Positions 14,895-37,764 of a stretch of DNA of 38,305 nucleotides are shown here, one piece after another. Source of the DNA: Planctomycetota bacterium. Lineage in GTDB: Bacteria; Planctomycetota; Phycisphaerae; Sedimentisphaerales; Anaerobacaceae. The notes below the pieces were generated by a model. That model had not been told where the DNA came from. It searched no databases and saw nothing but the letters and a program-made list of their open reading frames with translations. Numbering within the stretch: position 1 is the first letter of the stretch; each line of letters starts with the position of its first letter. Location of the stretch: assembly GCA_016872975.1 (NCBI GenBank), contig VGYL01000002.1, positions 1 through 38,305 on the forward strand, written 5' to 3'. Both the position numbers and the translations under genes were made by a program.

Positions 14895-16445
14895 TCATTC
14901 CTTCCACTTTGGGTTCGGCTGAGGCATCACCGCCTCAACCTTGTTTCGCCATTCGTGCAGCATTCGTTGCAGCTCGGCTGCCTTCTCGGGCATTTCAGCC
15001 GACAGGTCGCGCTGCTCGCCGAGGTCGGACCGCAGATCATACAGTTCCACCCGGTTGTCTTCATAGAATTCGATCAGTTTGTAGTCGCCCGCGCGAACGG
15101 CCCCGCCGGGCCCGCCGCCCTGGTTACTGTAGTGGGGGTAGTGCCAGTAGATCGCTTTGCGCTGCGGCCGGCCTGTGCCTTGGAGCAGGGGGACCATGCT
15201 TTCCCCGTCTACATGCTGGTCGGGCTTGGGCGGCAGGCCCGCCATTTCCAGCATCGTCGGGTAGAAGTCCGTGCTGGTCACCGGCTCGTCACACGTGCTG
15301 CCCGGCTTGACGACGCCGGGCCATTTGATCAGCATCGGCTCGCGGATGCCGCCTTCGTAGAGCCAGCCTTTGCCTGCGCGCAGGGGCAGGTTGCTGGTGG
15401 GCTGGCCTTCCGAGGTCGCCAGGCCGCCGTTGTCGGACATGAAGAAGACGATCGTGTTGTCCGCGAGCCCCTGCTCCTCGAGCTTCTTCATCACCCGGCC
15501 CACGTTCTCGTCCAGGCTCTGGATCATGGCCGCATAGACGGCATGGTCCTGCACGATGCGCGTCTTGAGCGTGGCCCGCCATTTCTCGTCACCGGCCGCC
15601 GTCTTGGGCCAGTCCTCATTCGAGCGGAAACGCTGTCCGTCGTCCAGCCCCAATCGTTGGGCCTTGGCCCTGTACTTCTCGACCAGCTCCTTCTTGGCCT
15701 CCAACGGAGTGTGGACCGTGTAGAACGACAGATACAGCAAGAACGGCTGGTCCTTGTTCTGCTCGATCAGCTTGAGCGACTCGTCCGTGAGCCGGTCCGT
15801 CAGGTACTCGCCGGGTCGGCCCTCTTCCAGGCCCGGGATCGAGCGATTGCCCCGCGCATAAGGATAGAAGAACGTCGGCGGCGAACCCGCGTTGTTGCCG
15901 GCGATGTTCACGTCGAAGCCCTGCTTCTCGGGGAAATACGGCTCATTGCCCAGGTGCCACTTGCCCACGAACCAGGTCCGGTAGCCCGCCTCCTTCAATG
16001 CCTCCGCGAGTGTGGTTTCCTCCAGTTTCAGGTAATGGAAGTACTCGGCCGAGAGCAGCTTGCCGCTACGGGCCCCCGGGATCCAGTTGGTCAACCGAAG
16101 CCGGGCGGGGTACTTGCCGGTCATGATGCTGGCCCGGGTTGGCGAGCAGACGGGACAGGCGGCGTAGGCCTCCGTGAAGCGCATCCCCTGGGCCGCCAGC
16201 TTGTCGATATTGGGCGTCTCATGGAACGTGCTGCCGTAACAGCCCAGGTCCTTCCAGCCCAGATCGTCCACCAAGAAGAACACGAAGTTGGGTTGGCGCG
16301 ATGATCTGTTTGTAGTGTGCTCGTAAGAGCATAAGAAGAAACGCCTTACGGCGTCACTACAAACCAGGCTCTGCGCCGTGGCGCTGCCGCCCGGTCCCAG
16401 GAATGCCGCCGCACCGATCGCCTTGAGAAAATCACGTCGTCTCAT
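14895..16445 (-). CDS. TAT-exported type I (formylglycine) sulfatase A
   Basis: MRRRDFLKAIGAAAFLG (TAT), NFVFFLVDDLGWKDLGCYGSTFHETPNIDKLA, CSPTRASIMTGKYPARL (C-x-P-x-R), GKWHLG, FFMSDNGG. Confidence 0.94.
   Translation of the reverse strand: MRRRDFLKAIGAAAFLGPGGSATAQSLVCSDAVRRFFLCSYEHTTNRSSRQPNFVFFLVDDLGWKDLGCYGSTFHETPNIDKLAAQGMRFTEAYAACPVCSPTRASIMTGKYPARLRLTNWIPGARSGKLLSAEYFHYLKLEETTLAEALKEAGYRTWFVGKWHLGNEPYFPEKQGFDVNIAGNNAGSPPTFFYPYARGNRSIPGLEEGRPGEYLTDRLTDESLKLIEQNKDQPFLLYLSFYTVHTPLEAKKELVEKYRAKAQRLGLDDGQRFRSNEDWPKTAAGDEKWRATLKTRIVQDHAVYAAMIQSLDENVGRVMKKLEEQGLADNTIVFFMSDNGGLATSEGQPTSNLPLRAGKGWLYEGGIREPMLIKWPGVVKPGSTCDEPVTSTDFYPTMLEMAGLPPKPDQHVDGESMVPLLQGTGRPQRKAIYWHYPHYSNQGGGPGGAVRAGDYKLIEFYEDNRVELYDLRSDLGEQRDLSAEMPEKAAELQRMLHEWRNKVEAVMPQPNPKWKE
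16308..16364. repeat. 57-bp palindromic element (family A) inserted in frame in sulfatase A
   Basis: gtttgtagtg ... cactacaaac perfect 10-bp ends; inner hairpins tgctc-gtaa-gagca and acgcc-ttac-ggcgt; encodes VCSDAVRRFFLCSYEHTTN. Confidence 0.9.
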
Positions 16446-18016
16446 CGTCCGTCCTTTCTGTCTCTTGCCTGCCGCCAGGTCTCGAAGTCGTCGCGCGGCT
16501 TCCCTGCGGGCATCTTCGCCCCCGTCTCGCTGCGCCACGCGTGCAGCAGGCGACGCAACTCGTCCGTCTTGGCCGGCATCGTGGCGGCCAGGTCGTTCTG
16601 CTCCCCCAGGTCATCCCTCAGGTTGTACAACTCCACGTGACCGTCCTCGTACCACTCGATCAGCTTGTAGTCGCCGGCTCGGACCGCGCCGCTGGGCCGG
16701 TTGCCGCTGCCGTGATAGTGCGGATAGTGCCAGTAGATTGCCTGGCGATCCAGGGTCCCTGTGCCTTTGAGCAACCTGGTGAGACTGACGCCGTCCACGT
16801 GCTGGCCGGGCCGGAGCGGCAGACCCGCCATTTCGAGCATGGTCGGATAGAAATCCGTGCTGGTCACCGGCTCGTCACACGTGCGGCCGGGCTTGACGAC
16901 GCCGGGCCACTTGATCAGCATCGGCTCGCGAATGCCGCCTTCGTAGAGCCAGCCCTTGCCCGCCCGCAGGGGCAGATTGCACGTCGAACCTTCCCGTCCG
17001 ATGGTGGACAGCCCGCCGTTGTCGGACATGAAGATCACGATCGTGTCGCGCTCCAGTCCCAGCGCCTCCAGCTTGCCCAGGACCCGCCCGACGCTTTCAT
17101 CGACGCTGTGCACCATGCCGGCATAGACCGCATGGTCCTGCACCAGCCTCGTCCGGAAGGCACCGTAGACGGGCTTGGCGCGCGGGCCGTCCATGGGCGG
17201 GAGATCCTTGGCCTTGGCTTCGTACTTGCGGGCCAGGTCGCTCTTCGATTCCAGGGGCGTGTGCACCGCATAATGTGACAGGTACAGCAGGAATGGCCGG
17301 TCCTTGTTGGCCTCGAGGAACCGCAGCGACTCGTCCGTCAGCCGGTCGGTCAGGTAGTCGCCCGCTTTGCCGCCCGCTGGCAGCGTCTCCAACGAACGAG
17401 TGTTCTTGCTGTAGGGATGGAAGTACGTCGGGGGGGCGCCGGAATAATCGCCCCCGATATTGATGTCGAAGCCCTGGCGGTCCGGATAGTACTTGGCCCG
17501 GTCCTCGTCGCGCGTCGCCAAATGCCACTTGCCCACGAAGCCCGTCACGTATCCGGCCTCCTTGAGGGCCTCGGCGATGGTCACTTCCTCCAGCGGCAGG
17601 TGGTCGCGGTATGCCGTGGGCTTCTGGGGCGCCCCGATCCAGTCCGTGATCCCGAGCCGGGCCGGGTACTTGCCGGTCATGATGCTGGCCCGCGTCGGCG
17701 AGCAGACCGGACACGCCGCATAGGCATTCGTGAACCGCATTCCCTGTGCCGCCAGCCGGTCAATGTTGGGGGTTTCGTAGAACGTACTGCCATAGCAGCC
17801 CAAATCCTGCCGGCCCAGATCGTCGATCAGGAAGAACACGAAATTGGGCCTGCGCGGCGACTTGTTTGTAGTGTGCTCGTAAGAGCATAAGAATAAACGC
17901 CTCACGGCGTCACTACAAACCAGGCCTCGGGCCTTGGCGCTGCCACTCAGGCCCAAGGCCGCGGTAGCGCCAATCGCCTGGAGAAAGCTCCGTCGGTTCA
18001 GCAGACTCCCCTTCAT
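16442..18016 (-). CDS. TAT-exported type I (formylglycine) sulfatase B
   Basis: MKGSLLNRRSFLQAIGATAALGLSG, NFVFFLIDDLGRQDLGCYGSTFYETPNIDRLA, CSPTRASIMTGKYPARLG. Paralogue of sulfatase A; ATGA overlap with it. Confidence 0.94.
   Translation of the reverse strand: MKGSLLNRRSFLQAIGATAALGLSGSAKARGLVCSDAVRRLFLCSYEHTTNKSPRRPNFVFFLIDDLGRQDLGCYGSTFYETPNIDRLAAQGMRFTNAYAACPVCSPTRASIMTGKYPARLGITDWIGAPQKPTAYRDHLPLEEVTIAEALKEAGYVTGFVGKWHLATRDEDRAKYYPDRQGFDINIGGDYSGAPPTYFHPYSKNTRSLETLPAGGKAGDYLTDRLTDESLRFLEANKDRPFLLYLSHYAVHTPLESKSDLARKYEAKAKDLPPMDGPRAKPVYGAFRTRLVQDHAVYAGMVHSVDESVGRVLGKLEALGLERDTIVIFMSDNGGLSTIGREGSTCNLPLRAGKGWLYEGGIREPMLIKWPGVVKPGRTCDEPVTSTDFYPTMLEMAGLPLRPGQHVDGVSLTRLLKGTGTLDRQAIYWHYPHYHGSGNRPSGAVRAGDYKLIEWYEDGHVELYNLRDDLGEQNDLAATMPAKTDELRRLLHAWRSETGAKMPAGKPRDDFETWRQARDRKDGR
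17864..17920. repeat. 57-bp palindromic element (family A) inserted in frame in sulfatase B
   Basis: Same length and ends as 16308-16364; two substitutions seen; encodes VCSDAVRRLFLCSYEHTTN. Confidence 0.9.
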
Positions 18017-23118: not shown

Positions 23119-23143
23119 TATGCTCTTACGAGCACGCTACGAA
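23119..23143. repeat. Half copy of the family A element
   Basis: tatgctcttacgagcacgctacgaa is the reverse complement of the first half of family A with two mismatches. Confidence 0.7.
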
Positions 23144-37560: not shown

Positions 37561-37662
37561 ACACCTGCCACCTTTCAGAATTTGTTTCACTGACGCAAAA
37601 GCACCATCCCCAAGGCCTTCCGGCCTTGGGGCTGCCACCCGATCCCCGTTATGGCATCGCCC

Positions 37663-37687
37663 GTTTGTAGTGTGCTCGTAAGAGCAT
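37663..37687. repeat. Half copy of the family A element
   Basis: gtttgtagtgtgctcgtaagagcat is identical to the first 25 bp of the 57-bp elements. Confidence 0.9.
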
Positions 37688-37696
37688 ATCTATCTC

Positions 37697-37764
37697 CACG
37701 GGCGGGACGCCCGTGCTACTCATGGGCAAGATGCCCATGCTACTCATGGGCGCTCGCGCCCATG
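37697..37764. repeat. REP-like cluster of three hairpins at 24-bp spacing
   Basis: cacgggcg-gga-cgcccgtg (37697), catgggca-aga-tgcccatg (37721), catgggcgc-tc-gcgcccatg (37745 onward), each followed by ctac. Confidence 0.9.

Follow-up and report, generated by a model that had tools for sequence, protein, structure and literature searches.

Two tandem sulfatase genes on a contig of a Planctomycetota bacterium (VGYL01000002.1) each carry a 57-bp palindromic segment, in frame and at the same site between the signal peptide and the mature enzyme. The locus raises the question of what kind of element this is, how it came to lie inside two open reading frames and whether the residues that it specifies belong to the sulfatase at all. 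We analyzed the whole stretch of 38,305 nucleotides (the window) together with the source genome, its congeners and more distant relatives. With a probability of roughly 0.8, the segment is a non-autonomous inverted dimer of GTAG-tagged REPs, similar to REPINs and BIMEs, that sits in frame in genes, the 19 residues in the sulfatases being a tolerated passenger.

Two in-frame palindromes in tandem sulfatase genes

The two segments (Table 1) are the same at 55 of 57 bases (96.5%), are free of stop codons and on the minus strand read VCSDAVRR(F/L)FLCSYEHTTN as the predicted peptide. Each follows a twin-arginine-type signal (MRRRDFLK... or NRRSFLQ...) and precedes the NFVFFL(I/V)DDLG start of the mature sulfatase, and both proteins keep every invariant position of the family alignment. 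A structure prediction for sulfatase A made with 8 homologues reached a mean pLDDT of 40 and was left out of the analysis. A first-pass annotation of the window had described 57-bp in-frame palindromes at one site of the two tandem genes, with 19 stop-free codons, and our analysis reproduces both the boundaries, to the base, and the reading. Two half copies that it placed elsewhere in the window fared differently from each other, in that the distal one is an exact unit whereas the other is a variant with GTAGCG replacing GTAGTG. Of its loop sequences, GTAA and TTAC, one needs correction: the second loop of the sulfatase A copy is TCAC instead of TTAC. The complementarity of GTAA and TTAC is a simple consequence of one REP unit being present twice, once in each orientation.

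Table 1. Positions of the sulfatase genes and repeat elements in the window (nucleotides, counted from its first letter) and of the repeat inserts in GltB (amino acids, aa).
Feature	Position	Strand
Sulfatase B gene, PF00884 and SGSH_C, from MRRRDFLK	14895-16445	-
Inverted GTAG-REP dimer of 57 bp within the sulfatase B reading frame (VCSDAVRRFFLCSYEHTTN)	16308-16364	-
Degenerate E2 half, directly upstream (coding sense) of the sulfatase B dimer	16365-16391	-
Sulfatase A gene, tandem paralogue of B	16442-18016	-
Inverted GTAG-REP dimer of 57 bp within the sulfatase A reading frame (VCSDAVRRLFLCSYEHTTN)	17864-17920	-
E2 half (AGTGGCAGCGCCAAGGCCCGAGGCCTG), adjoining the sulfatase A dimer on its upstream side (coding sense)	17921-17947	-
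Single REP unit, GTTYGTAGTG family, tag one-base variant	23119-23143	-
Single REP unit, GTTYGTAGTG family; flanks non-coding by codon model	37663-37686	+
GltB repeat inserts	aa about 289-387, 703-751, 1404-1509	

The repeat unit and its dimer

Alignment of the copies defines a repeat unit in which GTTYGTAGTG precedes a 5-bp stem whose loop is GYVA, the stems being mainly of the types TGCTC/TGCCC and ACGCC/GCGTC. The GTAG tag lies directly 5' of the short stem-loop, as in GTAG-tagged REPs, and the complete element consists of two inverted REPs and a spacer that can fold as a single unit, the arrangement found in REPINs and BIMEs. As a dimer built from GTAG-tagged REPs, the element has its closest family in the GTAG REPs and REPINs; the earlier likening to Rickettsia palindromic elements (RPEs) was apt for a dispersed, in-frame repeat, but the Rickettsia elements are a neighboring case. 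Folded as a single strand, the dimer is predicted to form a 10-bp outer stem and two 5-bp hairpins (-16.6 kcal/mol, z ~ -6.6). Compensatory changes in the inner stems occupy 34 cells, against 13 after shuffling and 0-4 in slid controls, and the base immediately before GTAG mismatches freely and does not pair.

The family is abundant in the source genome, and not by chance: GTAGTGNNNYCGYVAGR matches 402 half units, its reversed pattern only 2, and there are 17 complete exact pairs against 0 in the control. All close units on opposite strands (39/39) face inward, usually with one unit of each stem type per pair and, in most, a spacer of 7-13 bp. At up to 6 mismatches 177 units (control 2) were found in 1.71 Mb, falling into 58 paired elements and 55 single units. 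With hundreds of copies in the genome and congeneric sulfatases that lack the insert, the first-pass view of a dispersed element, as opposed to a sulfatase domain, is upheld; the segment is neither a fixture of all related sulfatases nor confined to this locus.

Most copies of the family belong to one Phycisphaerae-type genus, in which it has expanded, eight congeners holding 1-149 copies, nearly all other genera searched in the family and order 0-2, and one genus 15. Database records that contain it are mostly MAGs of Phycisphaerae, Sedimentisphaerales or Planctomycetota. No match for the element was found in Rfam or in plasmid records, and no exact match in viral contigs. A few records labeled otherwise, two Desulfobacteraceae MAGs (L275, L301) and a Verrucomicrobia MAG (L287), carry the same REP, representing either transfer or misbinned planctomycete contigs.

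Insertions in unrelated genes

Comparison with insert-free homologues reveals RPE-like in-frame insertion in a set of unrelated genes, comprising those for the sulfatases, GltB, RsmB, RlmN and YgiQ. The large subunit of glutamate synthase, GltB (L067:13589-18913, contig C6 of the source genome), has three in-frame repeat inserts, of which two are bounded by REPs of the GTTYGTAGTG family (aa 302-353 and 1418-1509) and the middle one consists of other repeats. In the last of the three, repeats of another GTAG REP family form an array that occupies the middle of the REP dimer. Alignments to the GltB proteins of relatives continue on both sides and skip the insert, and those to PDB sequences break exactly at the repeats. 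Further in-frame copies in the source genome lie in YgiQ, an HdrA-like protein, an alpha-L-rhamnosidase, a 3-keto-disaccharide hydrolase, and a BatA/VWA gene and its neighbors. Among loci that database searches added from other genomes, RlmN has an in-frame copy inside the radical-SAM region, one such protein matching the full-length model at 376.8 bits (cut-off 290), and the insert-bearing GltB, YgiQ, RlmN and RsmB proteins all score above or near the full-length or equivalog cut-offs of their families. The same in-frame 58-bp dimer is found in RsmB of two separately assembled species (L280:2-1222 and L306:1043-2479), whose RsmB proteins are ~80% identical, and this insert is a case of long-term vertical retention. 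Closer to the arrangement in the window, a sulfatase and a beta-propeller protein of the congener G002 have a dimer just after the N-terminal signal (L269:4054-4110 and 2168-2224).

Two loci deserve separate mention. At L103:4882-15323 three neighboring open frames (DUF4175-like, BatA/VWA and DUF4159) contain an in-frame element each, and at L154:7855-10008 a REP dimer lies exactly between the FGE (sulfatase-modifying-factor) and BNR-repeat domains of one open frame, where it possibly fuses two genes.

Most intragenic copies keep the reading frame

Frame and pair statistics cover 1.71 of the 8.09 Mb (21%) of the source assembly, which is a fragmented MAG of 1451 contigs, 92% complete with 5.65% contamination, and coding status was taken from an in-house fourth-order model and Pfam/NCBIfam matches instead of full gene calling. 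Most of the 57 classifiable pairs lie without coding DNA on both sides, and 15, an intragenic share of ~1/4, have it on both sides on one strand. Thirteen of these 15 keep a single frame, 2 shift it and 0 introduce a stop; by our own arithmetic the probability of at least 13 of 15 in frame is ~3e-5 if frame were random. Lengths divisible by three are found in 11/15 of the coding-flanked elements vs 18/42 elsewhere (p = 0.04), a bias that is modest when taken alone. The usual phase of the in-frame elements begins exactly at GTT, yielding V(C/R)S... ...TTN. The two copies in the window are absent from the 15 because the adjoining signal region is short and provides too little coding signal.

History of the sulfatase site

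The tandem sulfatase pair is present in congeners, and the eight congeners lack the dimer at the same site. Four congeneric genes (sulfatase B of G002, A of G007, and A and B of G008) have ...KA(A/E)GLGDG... at this position, which comes from one half of E2 (GGTGGCAGCGTCAAGGCCGNAGGCCTTGGCGATGG), a second dispersed repeat, whose ends gave 166 hits over the 1.71 Mb (control 0); the remaining congeneric sulfatases are shorter here. Both dimers in the window directly follow an E2-like half (Table 1). Of the 58 paired elements, 24 have an E2 end within 45 bp in the expected orientation and 2 have one in the wrong orientation; for random positions the share is 0.3%. This proximity in one orientation suggests that E2 halves act either as landing places or as partners in mosaic elements. 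The mature parts of genes A and B are 71.5% identical, vs 96.5% for the dimers, and the duplication is older than the dimers, so that the two dimers would have arisen either by two insertions beside E2 or by one insertion plus gene conversion.

E2 itself is a palindromic/TIR family of ~100 bp bounded by GGTGGCAGCGTCAAGGCCG...CTTGACGMTGCCACC, with examples at L063:9040, L064:8998 and about 37610-37641 of the window. Its arms have REP dimers inside them or next to them in many cases.

Candidate mobilizing enzymes

Y1 HUH transposases (RAYTs) are thought to move GTAG REPs (PMC3733652, PMC3116915). Twelve Y1_Tnp genes are present in the source genome, and Y1 genes flanked by REPs of other GTAG families occur in the genus (L026 and L027, and in relatives L185, L318, L322 and L324). 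A survey of ~65 Y1 loci from 13 genomes turned up none in which two GTTYGTAGTG-family REPs flank the Y1 gene, an absence that is no proof because the MAGs are incomplete; units of the family are only occasional, single and distant at these loci. Since no such flanked gene was found, we infer the Y1 (RAYT-type) mobilization of this family by kinship. The caution with which mobility had been proposed before is still appropriate, and it applies equally to the mobilizing enzyme. Apparent links between the GTTYGTAGTG family and Y1 genes were rejected, as they came from repeat-encoded peptides common to the long open frame of L026.

A third family, GTAGCATGGGCGTCCCGCCCATG, flanks a Y1 transposase-like gene in L026 (1135-1883) and L319 and also lies at 37697-37744 of the window; in many frames it specifies peptides that recur, SMGVPPM and HGRDARAT among them. 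Y1 transposase genes are likewise flanked by GTAGGGTGGGGCTTGCCCCACC and its relatives in L027, L185 and L318 (variants in L322 and L324), which are candidates for complete RAYT-REP pairs in the genus.

A model for in-frame spread and its alternatives

We propose that the copies spread as short units that fold when single-stranded, and that their most likely mover is a RAYT-type Y1 HUH transposase. After insertion a filter would act for an open phase, a stop-free orientation and a frame-keeping length, and the survivors would lie mainly where proteins tolerate them: in domain linkers, in loops and at the junctions between signal peptides and mature enzymes, for instance. In the two sulfatases the dimer lies directly behind the E2 half, which relatives carry at this site without the dimer. 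As judged from sequence, the predicted 19 residues most likely represent no sulfatase domain but a passenger that the enzyme tolerates, and a role of the peptide in export or folding is unsupported because many host proteins are cytoplasmic. A broader scheme, which we offer tentatively, is that several palindromic families (the REP dimer, E2 and GTAGCATGGGCG REPs) repeatedly invade the same protein sites, next to or within one another, with halves of earlier repeats as landing places, and that linkers and signal junctions of these planctomycete enzymes grow by serial in-frame insertion of structured mobile DNA. If true, serial insertion would be a steady source of new protein segments and no occasional accident.

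The element is short, with terminal inverted repeats, an internal spacer and many copies, all of which would also suit a classical MITE with 10-bp termini (GTTTGTAGTG...CACTACAAAC) mobilized by a DDE transposase that duplicates its target. However, no target-site duplication was found at the sites inspected, the two sulfatase copies and the GltB insert, which argues against a DDE-type MITE. In addition, the conserved unit is the GTAG tag plus hairpin, with the base before GTAG unpaired, and single units are as common as pairs (55 vs 58), as expected of REPs and not of MITEs, making this origin unlikely. It is quite unlikely as well that the segment was selected because its mRNA fold or the encoded peptide paces export of the sulfatases or spaces the signal peptide from the enzyme, which would account for its presence at one site in both tandem genes. 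The strong fold, the signal-adjacent dimers in the congener and the high identity of the window copies relative to their genes are compatible with such a function, but many intragenic copies reside in the cytoplasmic enzymes GltB, RlmN, RsmB and YgiQ, orthologous sulfatases manage without the insert, and recent insertion or gene conversion accounts for the copies being so alike.

That the insert-bearing genes are decaying pseudogenes or assembly artefacts, their open frames being coincidental, is very improbable. The source assembly is fragmented and two of the 15 coding-surrounded elements do shift the frame, yet the other 13 are in frame without stops, both sulfatases retain their invariant positions, the inserts in GltB, YgiQ, RlmN and RsmB are compatible with near or above cut-off family scores, and the RsmB insert recurs in frame in two separately assembled species. 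The preferred reading of a GTAG-REP dimer tolerated in frame turns the insert-free congeners into empty counterparts of filled sites, with which the tolerance of enzymes for segments of 19-90 residues can be probed. It also carries a warning for annotation, as such segments are no domains.

Comparison with known repeat systems

GTAG REP families, their dimers and their hosts, Planctomycetes and Verrucomicrobia among them, were described by Di Nocera et al. (2013; PMC3733652), who reported in-frame intragenic dimers encoding 20-30 residues, among GTAG hosts most numerous in Opitutus terrae. As in those REPs, the tag of the family described here lies 5' of the stem-loop, copies are numerous and form inverted dimers, some of them in frame within genes, and one genome houses several families; the family differs in that no family-flanked RAYT was found, about one quarter of the pairs are intragenic and copies are nested with other repeats. 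By word search, the main text of that paper does not name the Phycisphaerae-type host genus, and our literature search for planctomycete in-frame palindromic repeats found nothing. Inverted REPs, a variable spacer and a hairpin, along with Y1 genes flanked by the other REP families of the genus, are features held in common with REPINs and BIMEs. In contrast to REPINs, which in P. fluorescens SBW25 are nearly all extragenic (14 of 1,067 16-mers overlap genes; Bertels and Rainey, 2011, PMC3116915), many copies here lie within reading frames, and a cognate RAYT was not found. Similarly to the RPEs of Rickettsia and Wolbachia, in-frame palindromes occur in functionally diverse genes whose proteins are apparently functional, whereas sequence and host differ and RPE-1 is longer, a separation based on published descriptions; RPE-4 and RPE-6 of Rickettsia have been classed in the CGTC superfamily, the counterpart of GTAG (PMC3733652).

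Since in-frame intragenic GTAG REPs have been published (PMC3733652), the GTTYGTAGTG family is a new family of a known kind, and its host group is new as well. Its notable features are its intragenic share, single genes in which several repeat families are nested, and the hits at signal junctions and in core enzymes, which include glutamate synthase and rRNA methyltransferases. Protein-coding palindromes of the REP type are thus not peculiar to Rickettsia, Wolbachia and Opitutus, but are plentiful in large planctomycete genomes.
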